From contig NZ_SNYH01000002.1 in assembly GCF_004363005.1 (NCBI RefSeq), positions 1-64,000 on the forward strand: 64,000 nt of DNA, written 5' to 3'. Under the pieces are notes generated by a model, which saw only the letters and a list, made by a program, of their open reading frames with translations, had not been told where the DNA came from and did no database searches. Position numbers and translations under genes: made by a program. This document shows, piece after piece, positions 30,545 through 42,033 of this stretch. Positions within the stretch are counted from its first letter, which is position 1; the number at the start of each line of letters is the position of its first letter. Origin of the DNA: Tenacibaculum caenipelagi. Its GTDB lineage: Bacteria > Bacteroidota > Bacteroidia > Flavobacteriales > Flavobacteriaceae.

Positions 30545-31900
30545 TTATTTCTTCTTATTGCGTTTGTTATAATTCTTATCGCCTCTTGTTTTTGGCTTTT
30601 TATATTTCTTAGCAATTTCTCTTCGGTAAGAACCTCCCTGATTCGTTTTTTTATTCTTTTCTTTCTTCTCGTGAAAAGCTGGCCCAGGAATATACTCTTG
30701 AGAAGTTCTGTTCTTATTACTTTCTTGTTCTTCTTTCGGACGCTCTTCTTCAGTTAACTCTTTAGAGATTTCTACCTGCTCTGGAATTTCTAACTTCGGA
30801 ATTGTGTAATCCATCAACTCTTCTATTCGTTGTTTTGCTTCCTGTTCTTTTTCTGTAGCAAATAAAATAGTTTTCCCTTCATGCTCTGCACGTCCTGTAC
30901 GACCTATTCTGTGCATATAGTTTTCTGGAAAATGTGGTGTATTGAAATTGATTACATGTGTAATTTCTTCTAAATCTAATCCACGAGCAATTACATCTGT
31001 CGCAATTAAAATTCGCTTTTCTCCTTTATTGAATTGTTCTATGGAACGTAAACGATAGTTCTGTGTTTTATTTGAGTGAATAACACAAGCTTGCGACGGA
31101 TATTCTTCAGCAACACAATCAAATAACCTATCTGCATTTCGCTTATTAGGCGCAAATACTAACACTTTACTAAACTCTGATTTATCAAATAACAAATAAT
31201 TCAACAAGTTAACTTTAGTGTAAAAATTAGGAACGTCATAGCTTGTTTGCTGAATATTGTCTAGCGGTGTTCCACTAACTGCAATCGCTATTTTATGTGG
31301 AGCAATAAAAAAATCATCAATTAAAGCTTCCACATCCTCTGTCATGGTTGCTGAGAACATGATATTTTGACGTCTTTGAGGTAACAAATCAAAAATATTT
31401 AACAACTGAAAACGAAAGCCTAAATCAAGCATCACATCTACTTCATCAATCACCAATTTCTGAATAGACTTTAATTTCAATACGTTGCTTAAAGCTAAAT
31501 CATATAAACGTCCTGGAGTAGCAACAATAATATCAGCACCTTGTATTACTGCTTCTTTATGTCGATTTAAGTTGACGCCTCCATACACCCCAATAGTACG
31601 TAAGGTCATGTATTTTGCTAACTTTTCAATCTCTTCTACCACCTGCACCACTAATTCTCGTGTAGGCACCAATATCATCACCCTTGGGTGTTGTTGTTTT
31701 GAAAACTTTAAATCACGTAATATCGGTAATAAATATCCAAAGGTTTTCCCTGTACCTGTTTGTGCAATACCAACCACATCTTTTCCTGAGCGAATAACAG
31801 GAAATGCTTCTTCTTGAATAGGTGTTGGATTTATAAAACCTAATTCTTCAATTGAATTTCTTAGTGGATTTGATAAGTCTAAATCTTGAAAAGTAGTCAT
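30545..31900 (-). CDS. DEAD-box-type RNA helicase with DEVD motif II
   Basis: A 451-residue superfamily 2 helicase. The motifs in order are Q motif FINPTPIQEEAFP, AQTGTGKT (I), PTRELVVQ (Ia), DEVD (II, in VIDEVDVMLDLGF), SAT (III), ATDVIARGLD (V) and HRIGRTGR (VI). The C-terminal 70 residues are Lys/Arg/Glu-rich, as in RNA-binding tails. Motif II reads DEVD where the family has DEAD. I set the start at the ATG at 31900: the longer frame begins at a TTG upstream of the -7 element at 31917-31924. It is likely involved in RNA folding or ribosome assembly. A second DEAD-box helicase is at 59.7 kb. Confidence 0.93.
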   Translation of the reverse strand: MTTFQDLDLSNPLRNSIEELGFINPTPIQEEAFPVIRSGKDVVGIAQTGTGKTFGYLLPILRDLKFSKQQHPRVMILVPTRELVVQVVEEIEKLAKYMTLRTIGVYGGVNLNRHKEAVIQGADIIVATPGRLYDLALSNVLKLKSIQKLVIDEVDVMLDLGFRFQLLNIFDLLPQRRQNIMFSATMTEDVEALIDDFFIAPHKIAIAVSGTPLDNIQQTSYDVPNFYTKVNLLNYLLFDKSEFSKVLVFAPNKRNADRLFDCVAEEYPSQACVIHSNKTQNYRLRSIEQFNKGEKRILIATDVIARGLDLEEITHVINFNTPHFPENYMHRIGRTGRAEHEGKTILFATEKEQEAKQRIEELMDYTIPKLEIPEQVEISKELTEEERPKEEQESNKNRTSQEYIPGPAFHEKKEKNKKTNQGGSYRREIAKKYKKPKTRGDKNYNKRNKKK

Positions 31901-32017: not shown

Positions 32018-35000
32018 TTACTCTTTTATAATTTTAAACACCTTTATCCCTTTTTGTGTGTATACACGAGCAAAGTAAACACCTTTTATAAAGCTTTCTA
32101 AATCAATTTCCTTTTCTGAACTTTTCACAATCTTTTGTCCGGACAGATTGTATAGTTCAAAACTATCTATTTCAATAGTAGAATATACTTTTCCTTGAGT
32201 TGGATTAGGATATAGAATAAATTCATCACTTTCATCATCACCTCCCATGCTCAGAGATTTATCAACCGTTATAACAAATTCATGGAAACTATAGTTGTTA
32301 TAATTGTCAAAAACTTCAATAGTAATGGTATGGTCTCCTGCTGTCAATATTTGTCCTGGTGAAGGATATTGTTCCACACTTAATATACTGGCACAATTAT
32401 CTGTAACTGTAATTTGATTTCTAAAATCTTCCAATATATATCCATTATTCTCTGTATTGTTAACTCCTACAACCATATCATTTGGTAAAGTAGTTACATC
32501 AAACACAGGATATAAAGTATCTACCACTCTTATCATTGTAGTACATGTAGCTACCAAATCATTATTATCAATAACAGTTAATGTGACAGCAATTGGATTT
32601 CCTATATCTGAACAGTTAAAAGAATTTCTATCAATACTCAAAGACTTTATTCCTGATAAATCAGTTGATCCATTATCAATATCACTTGCTTCAATCACAT
32701 AACTTCCTGTTTCATCTAGAGCAAAAATAGCTTCTGAAATACAGTTTACCGTAGGCGCAGTGGTATCTACCACATTTACTATTCGAGTTACTTGTGCTGC
32801 TGCATTTCCTGAAGCATCTGTAGCATTGTAATAAATTGTGTAGGTTCCTACAGCATCTACAAATTCAGAAGTATTGATAACAACATCCGATCCATCATCT
32901 GTCGTAGCTCCTAATTCTGAATAACCTACTCCCAACTCTATCGTTTGTGGGTTGGCTCCTATTAAACTAATAACTGGTGCAGTTGTATCTATCACATTTA
33001 CTGTTCGAGTTACTTGTGTTGCTGTATTTCCTGAAGCATCCGTAGCATTGTAATAAATTGTGTAGGTTCCTACAGCATCTACAAATTCGGAAGTATTAAT
33101 AATAACATCCGATCCATCATCTGTCGTAGCTCCTAATTCTGAATAACCTACTCCTAATTCTATCGTTTGTGGGTTGGCTCCTATTAAACTAATAACTGGT
33201 GCAGTTGTATCTATCACATTTACTGTTCGAGTTACTTGTGTTGCTGTATTTCCTGAAGCATCCGTAGCATTGTAATAAATTGTGTAGGTTCCTACAGCAT
33301 CTACAAATTCGGAAGTATTGATAATAACATCCGATCCATCATCTGTCGTAGCTCCTAATTCTGAATAACCTACTCCTAGTTCTATCGTTTGTGGGTTTGC
33401 TCCGTTTAATGTAATTACTGGTGCTGTGGTATCTATCACATACACTGTTCGGGTTACTTGGTCTGCTTTATTTCCATAAGCATCCGTAGCATCGTAGTAA
33501 ATGGTGTAAGTTCCAACTACATCTCTAAATTCGGAAGTATTGATTACAACATCTGATCCATCATCTGTCGTGGCTCCTAATTCTGAATAGCCTGCTCCTA
33601 GTTCTATCGTCTGAGGGCTTGTTCCGTTTAATGTAATTACTGGTGCTGTGGTATCTACCACATACACAGTTCGGGTTACTTGGTCTGCTGTATTTCCTAA
33701 AGCATCTGTAGCATCATAATAAATAGTATAGGTTCCTACGGCATCTACAAATTCGGATGCATTGATAACAACATCTGATCCATCATCTGTCGTAGCTCCT
33801 AACTCTGAATAGCCTGCTCCTAGTTCTATTGTTTGTGGGTTTGCTCCTACTAATGTGATTACTGGTGCTGTGGTATCTATCACATTTACTATTCGAATTA
33901 CTTGGTCTGCTGTATTTCCTGAAACATCCGTAGCATCGTAATAAATAGTATAGGATCCTATTTCATCTCTAAACTCAGAAGTATTGATAATAATATCCGA
34001 TCCATCATCTGTAGTCGCTCCTAATTCTGAATAGCCAGATCCTAGTGCTATCGTTTGTGGATTTGCTCCATTTAGGGTAATTACTGGTACAGTGGTATCT
34101 ACCACTTTCACTGTTCGAGTTACTTGTGCTGCTGTATTTCCTGAAGCATCCGTAGCATTGTAATAAATGGTGTAAGTTCCAACTGCATCTCTAAACTCAG
34201 AAGTATTGATAACAACATCCGATCCGTCATCTGTCGTAGCTCCTAATTCTAAATAGCCTGCTCCTAACTCTATCGTTTGAGGATTCGCTCCGTTTAGTGT
34301 AATTACTGGCGCAGTGGTATCTACCACTTTCACTGTTCGGGTAACTTGCTCTGCTGTATTCCAAGAAGCATCCGTAGCATTGTAATAAATGGTGTAAGTT
34401 CCAACTGCATCTCTAAACTCAGAAGTATTGATAACAACATCCGATCCGTCATCTGTAGTCGCTCCCAATTCAGAATAACCTGATCCTAACTCTATTGTTT
34501 GTGGGTTCCCTCCATTAAGCGCAATCACTGGCGCTGTGGTATCTACTACTTGAACGATTCGGGCGACTTGGTCTGCAGAATTCCCTGAAGCATCCGTAGC
34601 ATCATAAAAAATTACATAGGCTCCTACGGCATCTCTAAAATTAGAAGAATTGATAATAACATCCGATCCATCATCTATGGTTGCCCCCAATTCTAAATAG
34701 CCTGTTCCTAATTCTATCGTTTGTATGAATGTTCCGTTTAGTGTAATTACTGGCGCAGTGGTATCTACCACTTTCACTGTTCGGGTGACTTGGTTTGCTT
34801 TATTTCCATAAGCATCCGTAGCATCGTAATAAATTGTATAACTTCCTATTGCATCTCTAAACTCAGAAGTATTGATAACAACATCCGAACCGTCATTTGT
34901 GGTTGCCCCCAATTCTGAATAGCCAGCTCCTAATTCTATCGTTTGTGGATTTGCTCCTACTAATGTGATTACTGGTGCGGTATCTACTACATTTACTGTT

Positions 35001-37969
35001 CGGGTTACTTGTGCTGCTGTATTTCCAGAAGCATCCGTAGCATCGTAATAAATAGTATAAGTTCCAACCGCATCTCTAAATTCAGAAGTATTGATTACGA
35101 CATCTGATTCATCATCTGTAGTCGCTCCTAATTCTGAATAGCCTGCACCTAACTCTATCGTTTGTGGATTCGCTCCGTTTAATGTAATAACAGGTGCTGT
35201 TGTATCTATCACATTCACTGTTCGGGTAACTTGGTCTGCTGCATTCCAAGATGCATCCATAGCATCGTAATAAATGGTATAGGTTCCTACTGCATCTCTA
35301 AAGTTAGAAGTGTTGATAATAACATCCGATCCATCATCTGTCGTAGCTCCTAATTCTGAATAGCCTGCTCCTAATTCTATTGTTTGTGGATTCGCTCCTT
35401 TTAGTGTAATAACTGGAGCTTTACAGTCATCTCCAAAATTAGTATGTGCATCAATACTGGACCAACTTATAGCACTATAAAAAGGGTTATCAACTTCAAT
35501 ACAGCGTAGCAAGGGATTTGATGTTGATTGAAAAGCTGTAATTTTTGTATTGTTGTTATTTTTAACATTAAAATATTCCAACAAACTATTACCAAAAACC
35601 CTTAATTGAAGAAGGTTAGGAAGCCCGCTAACATCTAACTCTTTTAACTCACTATAGCTAATTTCTAAAACAAGTAGACTCTTTGTTAACTGTGATGGTA
35701 ATAACTCAGTAAGTGGGTTGCTACCAATAGATAATCTCGTTAATTTTGTATTGAGTGATACATCTATTTTTGAAATATTATTTAACTCGCAATATATTTC
35801 ACCTAACTCTAGATTTCTAGAAACATCAAGTTCAGTTAAGTTATTACCTATTAAAAACAATCTACCTAAGTTAGTAAAGCCTTTTATACCTGTTAAGTCA
35901 AATATATCTTTTCCATTCAAATTTAATTGATAAACAGTATTGATATTTTTCTTTAACACATAATTATCTAGCCCATCATCATAACCTAAATCTATCAATG
36001 CTTGCTCAAAGTTATCATCTGGAACATAGACAGAATCGTAACGGCAAGAATCACTAAATGAAGTGTGTGCATCTATAGTTGTCCAGTTTGTAGTACTATA
36101 GCTAGGATTATCCACTTGAATGCAATACAATTCTGGAGTATTTATGGTCTCGAAAGTTAGGATTTTAGTTTCATCAATGTCTTTTAAGGTTAGTTCTCCT
36201 AAATAAGGGTTATCTCTTAGCCTTATATGTTTTAAATTAGTCATACCCGATAAATCTATTGCTGCCAGATGATTATCATTAAGGTTTAAGCTGAAAATAC
36301 TCGTTGGCAAACTTGATGGTAATAACTCCGTTAATCCATTTCCTTCTGCTGCAAAATATATTAGCTTGGTATTGGCACTAATATCAAGTTTTGTAATATT
36401 ATTACTACCACATAATAAATCTGTAAGCTCTGTATTACTTGAAACATCTAGCTCTGATAGATTATTTACTCTACAATCTAAATCCTTTAAAGCTGTGAAT
36501 CGCTCAATTCCGGTAAGGTCACTAATATTCTTATTGTAAAGATTTAAAATAGTTACAGAATCGATGTTTGCTGTTAAAACATAATTATCTAATACATCAT
36601 CATACCCTAAATCAATTAGCGTCTGTTCGAAATTATCATCAGGAACATAGGCATAGTCATTAAAACAATTTTGACTAAAATTAGTATGAGCATCTTTATT
36701 TGTCCAATTGGTTTCACTATACGATACATCATCCACATCTATACAATACAACAAAGGTGTATTAGTAGCTTGGAAAACTCTTAGTCCACTATTATTCCCG
36801 TTTTTTATTGAAAATTTTTCAAGGAACGGATTGTCCTTCATTATAGTCAAAACTAAATTCGGATAGCCGCTCAAATCAATTTCTGTAAGGTTGTTTTCAG
36901 CAACATTAAATTCAGAAAGATTTACTGCTGAACTTGGTATTATAAGTTCTTCTAATCCGTTACCCTCAAGGGCTAAGCGAGCTAGTTTGGTATTTGTTGA
37001 TAAATCAACAGATGATAACTTATTGTATCCTGCATATACAGTCATTAACTCTGTATTACTATAAAGATCTAGTTCCGATAGGTCATTTCCTCTAACCACT
37101 AAAATCGTTAATGCTGTAAAACCCTCTATACCAGTTAAGTCCGAGATGCTTTTTTCTTCTATTTCTAATGAAGTTACTGCACTTATGTTTGACTTTAAAA
37201 CATAATCGTCCAATGCATTATCGTAGCCTAAATCAATTAATGCTTGTTCAAAATTATCATCTGGAACGTATACATATTCCTCACAAAAAGTATTGAACGT
37301 TGTATGTACATCTTTATTGATCCAATAAGTATCACTGAAATTAGGATCATCTACCATAATGCAATCCAGTAAAGGGTTAGTTCGAATATCGAAATTACCT
37401 GCATTGGTTATACTGGTATTATTACCGTTCCTTACATTTAAATACTCTAAATTTGGACAATTAGTTAACCATAAGGCTCCCAAATTTATCAAATTACTTA
37501 AATCTAATGACGACATTTTATTACCCGCCAAATTAATATACTTTAAAGAGGTTGGTAAGACATTAGGAATAACCCTTGTTAGATTGTTGTTTTCGGCTAT
37601 TAAACTTTCCAGATTATTATTATTTGTTAAATCTAGTCTTGAAATTAAGTTAGCTCCACAGTGCAGTGTAATTAACTCTACATTGTTAGAAATATCTAAT
37701 TCTGTAAGTTTATTACTTCTAACATTAAGTGACTCTAAAGCTGTAAAGTCTTCTATACCTGTTAAATCTTGAATGTTTTTATTTTTAACATTTAAAGTTG
37801 TCACCGATGAAATATCTGAGGTTAGTACAACACCGTTAACAACACCATCAGAATCGATGCTCAGATCAATTAAAGCTTGTTCAAAAGCTGAATCTGGTAT
37901 GGAAGTAGTTTGCGCTGATACTACTAATGAAAAAAACAAAGTAATTAATGAGAGTAATTTTTTTGCCAT
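32018..37969 (-). CDS. Giant T9SS-exported adhesin with LRR blocks and Ig-like repeats
   Basis: A 1983-residue surface protein. A signal peptide (1-20, ending VVSAQ) is followed by four leucine-rich-repeat blocks of about 202-211 residues starting near 24, 235, 442 and 649. Blocks 2-4 open with VPDDNFEQ, and the blocks close with an AHT-x-F-x3-C-type motif. Residues 851-1737 are twelve tandem 74-residue Ig-like domains (DUF5011 type, PVITLNGANPQTIELGAGY). Two HYR-like domains follow, then a T9SS type A sorting tail (about 1910-1983, FILYPNPTQGKVYS to KGIKVFKIIKE). The architecture resembles Listeria internalins, so binding to a surface or partner protein is a fair inference. A TPR-HTH regulator lies 123 bases upstream in the same direction. 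The ligand is unknown. Confidence 0.9.
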   Translation of the reverse strand: MAKKLLSLITLFFSLVVSAQTTSIPDSAFEQALIDLSIDSDGVVNGVVLTSDISSVTTLNVKNKNIQDLTGIEDFTALESLNVRSNKLTELDISNNVELITLHCGANLISRLDLTNNNNLESLIAENNNLTRVIPNVLPTSLKYINLAGNKMSSLDLSNLINLGALWLTNCPNLEYLNVRNGNNTSITNAGNFDIRTNPLLDCIMVDDPNFSDTYWINKDVHTTFNTFCEEYVYVPDDNFEQALIDLGYDNALDDYVLKSNISAVTSLEIEEKSISDLTGIEGFTALTILVVRGNDLSELDLYSNTELMTVYAGYNKLSSVDLSTNTKLARLALEGNGLEELIIPSSAVNLSEFNVAENNLTEIDLSGYPNLVLTIMKDNPFLEKFSIKNGNNSGLRVFQATNTPLLYCIDVDDVSYSETNWTNKDAHTNFSQNCFNDYAYVPDDNFEQTLIDLGYDDVLDNYVLTANIDSVTILNLYNKNISDLTGIERFTALKDLDCRVNNLSELDVSSNTELTDLLCGSNNITKLDISANTKLIYFAAEGNGLTELLPSSLPTSIFSLNLNDNHLAAIDLSGMTNLKHIRLRDNPYLGELTLKDIDETKILTFETINTPELYCIQVDNPSYSTTNWTTIDAHTSFSDSCRYDSVYVPDDNFEQALIDLGYDDGLDNYVLKKNINTVYQLNLNGKDIFDLTGIKGFTNLGRLFLIGNNLTELDVSRNLELGEIYCELNNISKIDVSLNTKLTRLSIGSNPLTELLPSQLTKSLLVLEISYSELKELDVSGLPNLLQLRVFGNSLLEYFNVKNNNNTKITAFQSTSNPLLRCIEVDNPFYSAISWSSIDAHTNFGDDCKAPVITLKGANPQTIELGAGYSELGATTDDGSDVIINTSNFRDAVGTYTIYYDAMDASWNAADQVTRTVNVIDTTAPVITLNGANPQTIELGAGYSELGATTDDESDVVINTSEFRDAVGTYTIYYDATDASGNTAAQVTRTVNVVDTAPVITLVGANPQTIELGAGYSELGATTNDGSDVVINTSEFRDAIGSYTIYYDATDAYGNKANQVTRTVKVVDTTAPVITLNGTFIQTIELGTGYLELGATIDDGSDVIINSSNFRDAVGAYVIFYDATDASGNSADQVARIVQVVDTTAPVIALNGGNPQTIELGSGYSELGATTDDGSDVVINTSEFRDAVGTYTIYYNATDASWNTAEQVTRTVKVVDTTAPVITLNGANPQTIELGAGYLELGATTDDGSDVVINTSEFRDAVGTYTIYYNATDASGNTAAQVTRTVKVVDTTVPVITLNGANPQTIALGSGYSELGATTDDGSDIIINTSEFRDEIGSYTIYYDATDVSGNTADQVIRIVNVIDTTAPVITLVGANPQTIELGAGYSELGATTDDGSDVVINASEFVDAVGTYTIYYDATDALGNTADQVTRTVYVVDTTAPVITLNGTSPQTIELGAGYSELGATTDDGSDVVINTSEFRDVVGTYTIYYDATDAYGNKADQVTRTVYVIDTTAPVITLNGANPQTIELGVGYSELGATTDDGSDVIINTSEFVDAVGTYTIYYNATDASGNTATQVTRTVNVIDTTAPVISLIGANPQTIELGVGYSELGATTDDGSDVIINTSEFVDAVGTYTIYYNATDASGNTATQVTRTVNVIDTTAPVISLIGANPQTIELGVGYSELGATTDDGSDVVINTSEFVDAVGTYTIYYNATDASGNAAAQVTRIVNVVDTTAPTVNCISEAIFALDETGSYVIEASDIDNGSTDLSGIKSLSIDRNSFNCSDIGNPIAVTLTVIDNNDLVATCTTMIRVVDTLYPVFDVTTLPNDMVVGVNNTENNGYILEDFRNQITVTDNCASILSVEQYPSPGQILTAGDHTITIEVFDNYNNYSFHEFVITVDKSLSMGGDDESDEFILYPNPTQGKVYSTIEIDSFELYNLSGQKIVKSSEKEIDLESFIKGVYFARVYTQKGIKVFKIIKE
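32759..35419 (-). repeat. Twelve tandem 222-bp repeats encoding Ig-like domains
   Basis: Each unit encodes 74 residues; the second unit in protein order is one codon shorter. The last three units in protein order (32759-33424) are nearly identical at DNA level, while earlier ones have diverged more. That pattern suggests recent duplication at the membrane-proximal end. The array could expand or shrink by recombination. Confidence 0.92.
35423..37900 (-). repeat. Four direct repeats encoding LRR blocks
   Basis: Blocks begin at 37900, 37267, 36646 and 36025 (reading down the minus strand), with lengths of about 600-635 bases. They are clearly homologous at protein level (DNFEQALIDLGY, LTGIEGFTAL, LSELDLYSNTEL) but diverged at DNA level, so the duplication is older than that of the Ig-like array. 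Confidence 0.85.
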
Positions 37970-38092
37970 ATACGAGTGGATTAGAACTATTTTATCGAGC
38001 GCAAAAAAATGAAAATAGCACTAAACCTTAAAGAAAACTAAGGTAGCAAATGGGTATCAAACACTCAAAATCACTGACATAAATAAAAATCT

Positions 38093-39763
38093 CTACTCTT
38101 TAGGTATGTAGTTTTCTATATAATTTATAATATCCTCATCAGAGTTAATTTCTAATTTTTTTCTGATTCGATATCGTGTTGATTTTACTGATGCTAAACT
38201 TATACTTTGCAAATCTTTAATTTCATTGGTAGATAACCCCAACTTCATTAAGTATAGTAACTTCTTTTCTTTTTCATTAAGAAATGAAAAATGTGTATTC
38301 AATTTTATTTTAAAACTAGGACTTACCTTATCTAGATACTCTGCTAAACTTAATGAGGTATTATAGTCTATATTTTTAGATTTTAAAGATGCTAAAAGAG
38401 ATTTAATCGCTTTGGTTTTATCTTCTCCTGACTCAATACTTAAAATACTCTTTAATTCTTTTATAAAAAGCTCTTGATATTCTTGTTTAATTTGATTGTT
38501 TAAGTGCTCATTTTTAAGCTCAGCTTCTTTTAGTTGTAAAACCTGTTCAGCTGTTTTTCTCTGTAACTGTTCATTCTCTAATTTTCTTGTCGAAAGTGCC
38601 AATCGATTTTTAGTATTTTTTCTAATCAACAGAAAAATGGTTATTGCAGATGCTACAGATAACATTAATAATCCAAAGTACCATTGCTTTTTAGCCTTTT
38701 CGTTTTGAAGTTTCAATTCTGTTTGTAGCTTTTCTTTTTCAAATTGATAATTTAGCTCTAAAGCTGTGATTCGTTTTGCCTTTTCCGTATCATTTAGACT
38801 ATCATTATACGCTTTATACAATGTATAATCCTTTAATGCATGTTCAAAATTACCAGTGGTCTTATAAACAGAACTACGACTGTAATACTGTTTACGTAAA
38901 AGTTCTTTATGCTTTATTCTTTTGGAAATAGTAATAGCACTGTCCAGTCTTAGGATAGATTCTTTATAATTTTTAATTCCATTATAAGAAGCTGCAAGGT
39001 TCAGGTAGGCTGTACTTAATTCATTTAATAAACCTAATTCCTTAAAAATCTTTATATTTTCCTGAAAAGTTTTAATTGCTTTGTCATATTGTTTCGACGA
39101 ATAATATAATAGCGCTAAATTACCATTGACTTTAGCAATACCTTGTTTAGAGGTAAATAGTTCTTTCGCTTTACTATACTTAATGAATGCTGAATCATAT
39201 TGTTTTTCATAAAAATAGGTAACACCCAACATATTATAAGAAGTTGCTAAATCATCATAATTGCCATGGGTACGCTCTCTTATTTCAATTGCTTCTTTAA
39301 AATATGTTTTAGCTTTATCATACTCTTTTTGTCGCCTGTAAAACATTCCTAGATTATGTAAGGTTAATCCAAGCATAGTAGAATCCTTAATATTCTTACT
39401 AATTTCAAGAGCTTTTAGATAATTAGATAATGCTTTTTCAGGAAAACTTTGTTTAGCTTCTATAATAGCCAAATAATTAATTGCTTCTGCTTTTTTACCA
39501 GTAAAGTATACATTATTATATTTGCTAGCTTCTAACACTTTTATAACCTCATTAATCAATATTCTAGCTGTATCAATATCTCGATTAAGTATATACTTAG
39601 TCAATTCTATTTTAGAATGAATGCGAATAGAATCTGAAGACGATTCTTTTATATTAGATTTTAATTCATAAAGTGTACTATCCTTAGATTGCGCAACAAC
39701 CGATGACGATATAGTTAGTAATATAATTACCAGTTTATATACACAATTAGAAAGTTTCAACAT
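38093..39763 (-). CDS. TPR-containing membrane regulator with C-terminal HTH
   Basis: A 556-residue protein. A signal peptide or anchor (about 1-24) precedes roughly six tetratricopeptide repeats (about 75-340, for example LHNLGMFYRRQKEYDKAKTY). A membrane helix (about residues 365-382, WYFGLLMLSVASAITIFLLI) leads to a coiled coil and a LuxR-like helix-turn-helix (GLSTNEIKDLQSISLASVKS). Bacteroidota use such proteins to sense signals across the membrane and bind DNA in the cytoplasm. I chose the ATG at 39763: it gives a proper signal peptide and follows the -7 element at 39784, whereas the longer frame does not. It lies directly upstream of the giant adhesin and may control it. Confidence 0.85.
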   Translation of the reverse strand: MLKLSNCVYKLVIILLTISSSVVAQSKDSTLYELKSNIKESSSDSIRIHSKIELTKYILNRDIDTARILINEVIKVLEASKYNNVYFTGKKAEAINYLAIIEAKQSFPEKALSNYLKALEISKNIKDSTMLGLTLHNLGMFYRRQKEYDKAKTYFKEAIEIRERTHGNYDDLATSYNMLGVTYFYEKQYDSAFIKYSKAKELFTSKQGIAKVNGNLALLYYSSKQYDKAIKTFQENIKIFKELGLLNELSTAYLNLAASYNGIKNYKESILRLDSAITISKRIKHKELLRKQYYSRSSVYKTTGNFEHALKDYTLYKAYNDSLNDTEKAKRITALELNYQFEKEKLQTELKLQNEKAKKQWYFGLLMLSVASAITIFLLIRKNTKNRLALSTRKLENEQLQRKTAEQVLQLKEAELKNEHLNNQIKQEYQELFIKELKSILSIESGEDKTKAIKSLLASLKSKNIDYNTSLSLAEYLDKVSPSFKIKLNTHFSFLNEKEKKLLYLMKLGLSTNEIKDLQSISLASVKSTRYRIRKKLEINSDEDIINYIENYIPKE

Positions 39764-39783
39764 AAATATATCCCTTAATGCTG

Positions 39784-39791
39784 CAAAAATA
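39784..39791 (-). promoter_or_regulatory. -7 element of the TPR-HTH regulator gene
   Basis: Minus-strand TATTTTTG fits TAnnTTTG and ends 20 bases before the ATG at 39763. It supports trimming 51 residues from the longest frame. Confidence 0.6.
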
Positions 39792-39974
39792 CATTTTGAT
39801 CTTAATAAAGACCTAAAAAGTATATTAATAACAATCATTGTATGGAAAAGTAAAAAACTTACTGAACACCCTGTTTTTTCACGAACCAAACACCTAAAAA
39901 AACTCATTAACAACAAGTTAACTTAAAACATAATCAATATTTTGTATATTTAAAGGAGTTAATCCTTTTTGATT

Positions 39975-40436
39975 ATGGAAACACCTAAACGACTAGAGCA
40001 AGCGCTTATAAAACTTTACAATGCTTTTCATAACAATGAATTGAACCCAGAATGTTGCTCAGCTTGTGCTGTTGGAAATATTTTAGACAATAGAGATAGC
40101 TGGAAACATCTAACAAATGGTCACGGTTCGTTAGAGTTGAGTTATGTTGGTAGAGTACATCAAAATTTAGGCAGAAAATTTAACGGTTACTCTCCCTTAG
40201 AATTATTACAAATTGAAAAAGTTTTTCTTGAAGCTTGTGGGTTTGTGGTTCCTTTATGTCATTATAACCCAAAACCCCAAGACCCTACAAATAAAGAAAC
40301 CCTATTTAATGGCTTATGTGCTGTGGTTGCTCACTTATGTAAGTTAGATAACGTAGCAAACGTTATGGATTATTCTAAAATTTTTGAATACGAAAAAGAC
40401 ACTCCTGTATATCAGTTTGATGTAATTTACGAGTAA
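39975..40436 (+). CDS. Hypothetical protein with CCxxC motif
   Basis: A 153-residue soluble protein beginning METPKRLEQALIKLYNAFHN. I do not recognise the family with confidence. Visible features are the motif ECCSACAVGNILDNRDSWKH (residues 25-44), more cysteines in LEACGFVVPLC, and a mixed helical pattern. The ATG at 39975 is preferred over a TTG six bases earlier. A purine-rich AAGGAG at 39953-39958 is too far from the ATG to be a normal ribosome binding site. The stop codon abuts the stop of the convergent zinc-ribbon gene with no base between. Confidence 0.75.
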   Translation: METPKRLEQALIKLYNAFHNNELNPECCSACAVGNILDNRDSWKHLTNGHGSLELSYVGRVHQNLGRKFNGYSPLELLQIEKVFLEACGFVVPLCHYNPKPQDPTNKETLFNGLCAVVAHLCKLDNVANVMDYSKIFEYEKDTPVYQFDVIYE

Positions 40437-40565
40437 TTATTTTGCTAAAAACATCGTTTTACATTCAAAACACTTAAACCTTCTTTTATTGAAAAAGATG
40501 AGTTTCTGAACAAGACTTCTTCTTTTTCTTCTTACAAATGTAGATTGGCAATTTGGGCAGTTCAT
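40437..40565 (-). CDS. 42-residue zinc-ribbon protein
   Basis: ATG at 40565, stop at 40437. It encodes MNCPNCQSTFVRRKRRSL, a short hydrophobic helix, then KRRFKCFECKTMFLAK. Two CxxC pairs (Cys3/Cys6 and Cys32/Cys35) would bind one zinc. The linker between them is highly basic, suggesting nucleic-acid or ribosome contact. It is too short for many gene callers. Upstream, TTCCTTTG at 40587-40594 on the minus strand differs from TAnnTTTG by one base. Coding is supported by the paired motifs and by exact stop-to-stop packing with the neighbour. Function is unknown. Confidence 0.7.
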   Translation of the reverse strand: MNCPNCQSTFVRRKRRSLVQKLIFFNKRRFKCFECKTMFLAK

Positions 40566-40670: not shown

Positions 40671-40701
40671 AAAAAAACCGATACATTTCTGTATCGGTTT
40701 T
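40671..40701 (-). terminator. Terminator of the nqr operon
   Basis: A perfect 12-bp stem (AAAACCGATACA / TGTATCGGTTTT), loop TTTC, with a minus-strand T tract, 21 bases after the nqrF stop. Confidence 0.93.
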
Positions 40702-40722: not shown

Positions 40723-42033
40723 TTATCCTCCAAAGTCATCAAAACGAATATTCTCATCTGGAATACCAAAGTCTTGTCCCATTTTCTCTACTGCTTTGTT
40801 CATTAGCGGTGGTCCACAGAAGTATAATTCAATATCTTCTGGTGCTTCGTGCTTACTTAAGTAATTATCGATTACACAGTTATGAACAAAACCAACAAAA
40901 CCATCACCTTCATCTTCCATACTATTCTTTACTTTCCAGTTATCTTCCGGTAAAGGTTCTGATAATGCAATATGGAATTTGAAATTAGGGAATTCTTTTT
41001 CTAATGCCCAGAAGTGCTCTAAGTAGAATAATTCGCGCTTAGAACGACCTCCGTACCAATAAGAAACTTTTCTTCCTGTTTTTAAGGTTTTGAATAAGTG
41101 ATATAAGTGAGAACGCATTGGTGCCATACCTGCTCCTCCACCTACATATAACATTTCTGCATCTGACTCATTGATGAAGAACTCACCATAAGGTCCAGAA
41201 ATAGTTACTTTATCTCCTATTTTTCTAGAGAATACATATGAAGATGCAACTCCTGGATTTACATCCATCCATCCTCCTTTAGCTCTATCGAACGGTGGAG
41301 TAGCAATACGAACGTTTAACATGATTTCACGTCCTTCTGCTGGATAAGAAGCCATAGAGTATGCTCTCTCTACTGTTTCTGGGTTTTTCATTACTAAAGG
41401 CCATAACTTAAACTTATCCCATTCTTCTTGGAACTTGTCTGGAGTTTCGTGCTCTTCAGGGTGTGCAGTGATATCCATATCTGAGAACTTTATTTCACAT
41501 GGTGGAATTTCAATTTGAATATACCCTCCTGCTTTGTAGTTCATGTCTTCTGGAATCTCAACTACGAATTCTTTAATAAAAGATGCTACGTTATAGTTAC
41601 GTACAACTGTAGCTTCCCATTTCTTAATACCAAAAATTTCTTCTGGAATTGAAATATCCATGTCTTGTTTTACTTTAACCTGACATGCTAAACGAGCTCC
41701 ATGTTGTAATTCTTTACGAGTAAAGTGTGGTGTTTCTGTTGGTAAAGCTTCTCCTCCACCTGAAAGTACGTGACACTCACATTGAATACAAGATCCACCT
41801 CCACCACAAGCTGATGGTAAAAAGATTTTCTCGTTTCCTAAGGTAGATAACAATGTACCTCCTGAAGCTACTTCTATTGTCTTATCACCATTGATTGTAA
41901 TCTTTACAGGTCCAGATGGTGCTAATTTTTGCTTTACAAATAATAATAAGGCTACTAATACTAAAAGTACCGCTAAAAACGCTAATACTGTAATAGCAAC
42001 TGTTCCTCCTGTGCTTACTTCTAAAAATACCAT
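40723..42033 (-). CDS. nqrF: Na+-translocating NADH:quinone reductase subunit F
   Basis: The 436-residue electron-entry subunit, which oxidises NADH through FAD and a [2Fe-2S] cluster. One N-terminal helix (about 10-33) anchors it. Cluster cysteines are 76, 82, 85 (CGGGGSCIQC) and 117 (GARLACQVK). The FAD motif RAYSMASYP and the NADH motif GGGAGMAPMRS follow in a ferredoxin-reductase fold. The start ATG overlaps the nqrE stop by one base (TAATG), indicating coupled translation. It is the last gene of the operon and is followed by a terminator. Confidence 0.97.
   Translation of the reverse strand: MVFLEVSTGGTVAITVLAFLAVLLVLVALLLFVKQKLAPSGPVKITINGDKTIEVASGGTLLSTLGNEKIFLPSACGGGGSCIQCECHVLSGGGEALPTETPHFTRKELQHGARLACQVKVKQDMDISIPEEIFGIKKWEATVVRNYNVASFIKEFVVEIPEDMNYKAGGYIQIEIPPCEIKFSDMDITAHPEEHETPDKFQEEWDKFKLWPLVMKNPETVERAYSMASYPAEGREIMLNVRIATPPFDRAKGGWMDVNPGVASSYVFSRKIGDKVTISGPYGEFFINESDAEMLYVGGGAGMAPMRSHLYHLFKTLKTGRKVSYWYGGRSKRELFYLEHFWALEKEFPNFKFHIALSEPLPEDNWKVKNSMEDEGDGFVGFVHNCVIDNYLSKHEAPEDIELYFCGPPLMNKAVEKMGQDFGIPDENIRFDDFGG

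Follow-up and report, generated by a model that had tools for sequence, protein, structure and literature searches.

Small zinc-finger proteins related to the CPxCG motif have been described as a class of fewer than 100 residues with two Cys/His patterns 7–40 residues apart, at least one of them CPxCG-like (CPxCG, CPxCx or CxxCG), and an interaction with DNA or RNA has been proposed for them (PMC2253796, Tarasov et al. 2008). According to the parts of three reports cited here, small proteins of the CPxCG type are frequent and their function is mostly unknown (PMC2253796, PMC6562870, PMC11241148). In Halobacterium, the gene of the small zinc-finger protein Brz lies immediately upstream of bop and is oriented like it, and high levels of bop mRNA require Brz (PMC2253796). 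Among the zinc-finger u-proteins of Haloferax, 12 of 16 deletion mutants showed a phenotype under some condition and, in the cited part of that report, no phenotype under optimal or near-optimal conditions (PMC6562870). When 14 C(P)XCG proteins of Haloferax were purified, 5 proved to be without zinc, and AlphaFold2 cannot tell the zinc-holding proteins from the others (PMC11241148).

Here we describe a bacterial gene with this motif, found in a window of 64,000 nucleotides (the whole stretch of DNA that was analyzed). The features of its locus are as follows.

40437–40565, minus strand: gene of a predicted 42-residue zinc-ribbon microprotein (C3xxC6, C32xxC35), based on open frame, orthologues, codon pattern, profile and predicted fold.
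40674–40701, minus strand: hairpin of 12 pairs between nqrF and the ribbon gene, -15.3 kcal/mol (-14.9 on the plus strand).
40723–42033, minus strand: nqrF (Na+-NQR subunit F type), the anchor of the locus upstream of the ribbon gene, with Fer2, FAD-binding and NAD-binding Pfam domains.
39975–40436, plus strand: convergent gene of 153 residues, whose stop touches that of the ribbon gene; no match in the Pfam search.

The ribbon gene runs from an ATG at 40565 to a TAA at 40437–40439 and carries its cysteines as CPNC (residues 3–6) and CFEC (residues 32–35). The convergent gene starts with an ATG at 39975 (155 residues if started at an upstream TTG) and ends with a TAA at 40434–40436, leaving 0 nt between the two stops. 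A preliminary description of this DNA had proposed both the complete 42-residue frame with these cysteine pairs, its strand unnamed, and a stop abutting that of a 153-residue gene on the opposite strand, and both proposals are correct, with the frame on the minus strand. Frames of this kind are rare: the window contains a single ATG-to-stop frame of 30–80 residues with a CPxC and a CxxC 15–35 residues further on, where 40 first-order Markov sequences had a mean of 0.0, and dropping the proline requirement gave 2 against a mean of 0.05. A promoter scan returned 4 sites (4.4 in shuffles). At 42 residues the protein is within the length range of the CPxCG class (<100), and its motifs CPNCQ and CFECK, in which C6 and C32 are separated by 25 residues, agree with the published pattern and are kept in every aligned member of the family.

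The ribbon frame is a real gene under purifying selection and not a chance frame. A protein search of 59 genomes, the own genome included, returned matches at E ≤ 1 in 37. Many of the weak matches were other zinc ribbons or stop-containing frames, and the top two from other genomes have 71% identity across all 42 residues. In a collection of named genomes, the matches listed included Tenacibaculum lutimaris (79% identity), an uncultured Tenacibaculum (71%), a Bacteroidia MAG (42%) and a Chamaesiphon MAG (33%), the last being the front part of a longer protein. The Bacteroidia match (L074:1008-1199) is a free-standing relative away from nqrF. T. lutimaris (strain DSM 16505) has the same gene order as the window, namely nqrF, ribbon gene, 153-residue gene and helicase gene. 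Six nqrF-side orthologues chosen as intact (the window, G017, G028, G375, G445 and G369) gave dN/dS ratios of 0.03–0.27 in 12 of 15 pairs; in the other three, synonymous change was saturated and the ratio not computable. When the differences were reshuffled 300 times, no ratio so low was obtained for 10 of the 15 pairs, and the worst pair reached it in 10 of 300. With omega free, the codon likelihood reached -467.3; with omega fixed at 1 it was -509.6, the latter being the best among kappa values of 1, 2, 3 and 5 (reached at 5). With interdependent pairs and a high level of synonymous change, dN/dS is clear in direction but rough in size. Differences between orthologues sit at third codon positions, the frame remains open, and the same residues recur in diverged homologues. 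The preliminary description had taken the frame for a real microprotein and had suggested a homologue search and an analysis of synonymous and nonsynonymous substitutions as checks; four-cysteine homologues, the low ratios and the kept position bear this out.

We built three profiles with overlapping membership, A1 (24 members), A5 (20 members, the nqrF-side branch) and A6 (14 members, a second branch). A1 found a match at E ≤ 0.001 in 98 of 146 same-genus genomes (own included; the genus taken as Tenacibaculum in the GTDB sense), with up to six per genome. Within the taxonomic family, matches at E ≤ 0.01 occurred in 24 of 299 genomes, some of them DUF2007 ribbons or stop-containing frames, a count that is no proof of absence elsewhere, as in most genomes only some of the first-look candidates received a score. 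At E ≤ 1e-5, matches were found in 4 of 196 genomes of the order, three from the same genus and the fourth a DUF2007 protein, and in 5 of 198 genomes of the phylum, three again from the same genus and two being free-standing frames of about 50–60 residues. The family is concentrated in one genus, with few matches outside. Its two branches are related (A5 against A6: probability 97.9, E 4.7e-13 for a single comparison). The own genome holds two members, the window frame and one on contig 6 flanked by an HMA-domain gene and a pseudouridine-synthase gene. Among the 30 best-scoring loci of the genus, rseP was present in 26, a Cupin_8 gene in 16 and both in 13 (within about 1.5 kb), and 13 loci carried two ribbons. 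The sister branch beside rseP/Cupin_8 (L077-L106, e.g. L077:1501-1656) encodes proteins of about 51 residues, often as a tandem pair.

All members of A1, A5 and A6 (24, 20 and 14) keep the four cysteines, an outcome favored by their having been gathered by similarity. Their net charge is +9 to +18 in 42–71 residues, compared to +1 to +5 in six DUF2007 ribbons, so that the basic scaffold noted from the window holds, at +9 or more, for every aligned member. A phage or plasmid origin was considered and rejected: no phage match was found, and the single plasmid match was from Halorussus with E 0.4. In PHROGs, 7 families were matched by 1–3 of 20 members (best E 0.0005), and PDC-S64 of PADLOC was matched by 3 of 20 (best E 0.003).

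We then compared the locus across the genus. nqrF was found in 137 of the 146 genomes, and 90 of the 137 loci were examined, namely the 30 with the highest scores and the 60 ranked after them. A ribbon gene lies within 600 nt of nqrF in 17 of the 89 genomes with at least 600 nt downstream (19 copies), and at a distance of 1.3–2.1 kb in three further genomes; in all 22 cases (22/22) these copies share the strand of nqrF. In G002 and G003, a tandem ribbon pair that shares the strand of nqrF adjoins the helicase gene, about 5 kb behind nqrF. Position and orientation behind nqrF are thus kept in a subset of the genus. The nqr-type neighbors of nqrF are conserved in G017 and G028. The 153-residue gene lies convergently at most 1 kb from nqrF in 41 of the 90 loci, with a ribbon gene in between in 9 of the 41; one of the 32 loci without an intervening ribbon, in G390, has masked bases in the gap. 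In 7 of the 9, the stops of the two genes range from an 11 nt overlap to a 4 nt gap, which makes the stop-to-stop packing a recurrent arrangement; in the remaining two they are 335 and 361 nt apart. At L116 (G369), the gap between nqrF and the 153-residue gene holds two diverged tandem ribbon genes, the second of which overlaps the end of the 153-residue gene by about 11 nt. Further along the window, a 1983-residue repeat-rich gene and a 607-residue frame (32018–39916) separate the 153-residue gene from a DEAD-box helicase gene (30545–31900). In G017 and G028, the helicase and 153-residue genes are only about 70 nt apart, pointing to either an insertion in the window or a loss in G017/G028.

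The hairpin between nqrF and the ribbon gene was not equaled in any of 200 shuffles and could be aligned in nine loci; a simple terminator scan gave nothing at its position (40674–40701). It is probably the terminator of nqrF. Perhaps it acts on both strands and also ends the transcript of the 153-residue gene; in that case this transcript would cross the ribbon gene in antisense direction up to the hairpin.

Four sister genomes (G022, G397, G027 and G428) have the hairpin and a distance of 108–127 nt between nqrF and the 153-residue gene, with the ribbon gene absent. In G022, roughly the last 15–19 ribbon codons are fused to the hairpin region (tblastn E 4e-7 when only this 126-nt gap was searched); the remnant lacks the first cysteine pair and the stop, and its fourth cysteine is altered. 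A similar remnant is visible by alignment in G397, where a sense-strand BLAST was not significant, and no ribbon remnant was found behind nqrF in G027 and G428. The profile search gave no family match in G022 and G027, and G397 and G428 are outside the 98 matching genomes. In an nqrF tree of the 30 best loci, one clade (support 1.0) unites the four genomes with G445, G017 and G375, which all bear a ribbon, and with G464, where both the ribbon and the 153-residue gene are missing near nqrF; some inner nodes of the tree are weak (0.34, 0.53). We read this as presence of the gene in the ancestor followed by loss in the sisters, a reading that extends to the remnant-free G027 and G428 by inference. 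The gene is therefore dispensable, as there are sister genomes without it and one with a truncated remnant. Frame disruption in close relatives had been named beforehand as an argument against the gene; some relatives did lose it, but such loss indicates a dispensable gene rather than the absence of a real one.

AlphaFold2 predicted for A1 a zinc-ribbon-like fold (mean pLDDT 84.5, pTM 0.52, modeled without metal), with strands at residues 11–13, 28–32 and 38–41 and a short helix at 18–23, and a similar layout for the sister branch (pLDDT 81.2, pTM 0.56). Foldseek listed 60 matches to solved structures at E ≤ 10 and none at E ≤ 0.001, led by NrdR (E 0.12) and followed by the small subunit of vanillate decarboxylase. 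When 303 of the Foldseek chains were aligned with VIA-align, 128 had Z of at least 2 and none reached 5, scores within the range that the tool labels unspecific; the leaders were NrdR (4.4), the plant Dof domain (4.3) and Rpb9/TFIIS-type ribbons, all of which we take to be zinc ribbons. The predicted fold thus agrees with the zinc ribbon of the preliminary description, but its resemblance to solved structures is weak (at best E 0.12 in Foldseek and Z 4.4 in VIA-align). No cut-off in Pfam or NCBIfam was reached by the ribbon protein (PF12760, 15.3 of 25.4 bits; NF050000, 15.1 of 28), and no family was matched by more than 11 of 24 of the other members at E ≤ 0.01. Sequence matches of A5 among solved structures (best, the zinc-finger chain Aart, E 3.5e-6; 27 at E ≤ 1, almost all of them zinc-finger proteins and a few of them chains of archaeal RNA polymerase subunit 12) were set aside as matches of cysteines and composition.

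Some known proteins contain ribbons of this type. The N-terminal zinc ribbon of NrdR is among the best structural matches, with 38–40 residues aligned (Z 3.8–4.4), but in NrdR an ATP-cone domain follows, whereas the ribbon protein ends at residue 42 without one. The NrdR model was not found in the own genome and matched in 9 of 14 control genomes. An NrdR identity was also considered and rejected for the recurring frames of 126–144 residues in the 59-genome search: the six inspected had a DUF2007-like front and a C-terminal ribbon, a seventh came from another search, and of three tested against the DUF2007 cut-off, two scored above and one just below. The C-terminal ribbon of DUF2007 proteins shares the pattern CPxCxS, CxxC-T-x-F with ours; it is, however, attached to the DUF2007 domain, low in charge and a weak match to the sister branch. 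The domain itself (PF09413) was not among the Pfam families listed for the window frame, which is of ribbon length only. The own genome encodes a DUF2007 protein with a C-terminal zinc ribbon on contig 7 (L042:4208-4588), a distant relative of the microprotein. The IS1595/IS1 transposase ribbon (PF12760, NF050000) shows weak sequence similarity to members of the family; our 42-residue protein is without the transposase part.

Our preferred reading, to which we assign a probability of about 0.55, is that the gene encodes a genuine one-zinc ribbon microprotein that binds nucleic acid and serves as a small, dispensable accessory regulator of gene expression. The four cysteines would hold one zinc, the RRKRR loop and the basic strand before the second cysteine pair would bind RNA or DNA, and the protein would act in the manner of Brz of Halobacterium. 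The site behind nqrF would more likely be a stable location than a sign of a role in NQR. Binding of nucleic acid is probable, as suggested by fold class and charge, and binding of zinc, RNA, DNA or the ribosome is plausible, a contact with RNA or ribosome having been suggested in the preliminary description as well. In favor of this reading, haloarchaeal small zinc-finger proteins with such motifs have regulatory or conditional roles. Counting against it, the partners of zinc ribbons include proteins too, 5 of the 14 Haloferax proteins were without zinc, the structural scores lie in the unspecific range, and most examined loci have no ribbon gene behind nqrF, with decay in some sisters. A wider version, in which the basic ribbons across the genus are RNA- or ribosome-binding regulators with branch-specific targets, appears unlikely as a whole; within it, the rseP/Cupin_8 branch might be a partner or substrate of the Cupin_8 (hydroxylase-type) enzyme, while members of the nqrF-side branch might modulate the convergent 153-residue gene beside them, whose transcript may run antisense through the ribbon gene to the shared hairpin.

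The most serious competitor, doubtful as we find it, is a ribbon that binds protein, as an accessory subunit or partner of RNA polymerase, the ribosome or another enzyme, and makes no nucleic-acid contact of its own. Among the structural neighbors are indeed Rpb9, TFIIS and ribbons of ribosomal proteins and enzyme subunits, the small subunit of vanillate decarboxylase being one example, but many near-identical low-scoring folds cannot pick a partner, and a charge as high as that of the family suits nucleic acid better. Quite improbable is a cut-down copy of the ribbon of a DUF2007 protein or an IS1595/IS1-type transposase, acting as a competitor or helper of the parent protein. Profile comparison with the DUF2007 ribbon (A1 at a probability of 93.4, A5 at 95.6, with E given for one comparison) and the matches of 11 of 24 members to Zn_ribbon_IS1595 at E ≤ 0.01 speak for such a descent; against it, the sister branch compares poorly with the DUF2007 ribbon (probability 44.5), DUF2007 ribbons are without the high charge, the window frame stays below the IS1595 cut-off, and no transposase was seen beside it.

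The position behind nqrF raises the idea that the ribbon protein is an accessory factor of NQR, perhaps a cysteine-rich maturation factor standing in for NqrM, which we consider very unlikely. In Vibrio cholerae, the gene of NqrM, a small maturation protein, lies downstream of the nqr structural genes (PMC12174285), and the common strand of the ribbon copies and nqrF (22/22) would suit such a role; a PF04400 (NqrM) match was found in 0 of 30 related genomes, but also in no control genome. At E ≤ 10, the Pfam search of the ribbon frame listed 16 families without PF04400, though HMMER filters can drop weak matches in such a search. However, the ribbon does not accompany nqr genes as NqrM does: it is within 600 nt of nqrF in just 17 of the 89 loci with room, other members lie elsewhere, for instance beside rseP, nqrF is intact where the ribbon is lost, the hairpin sits between the two genes, and the ribbon protein has no evident membrane segment. 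Finally, a chance or non-coding frame is hardly credible, short as the frame is and lost in some sister genomes, given the third-position differences, the open frames of the orthologues and the residues kept in diverged homologues.

No description of the ribbon family appeared among the matches listed from open-licence PubMed Central papers. Should the protein prove to be just one more accessory regulator, the result would be of modest weight. Yet two branches with fixed neighbors, natural loss mutants and matches in 98 of 146 genomes render the function of such proteins testable, and small zinc-finger proteins, best studied in haloarchaea, gain here a bacterial family with a usable profile. 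The conditional phenotypes of the Haloferax mutants fit a gene that is dispensable but under selection, and Brz is the nearest studied parallel in kind. The studied CPxCG proteins are archaeal, whereas ours is bacterial and more basic, and the likeness shown is one of motif alone; as this motif conforms to the published CPxCG definition, we regard the ribbon proteins as a new family of a known kind.
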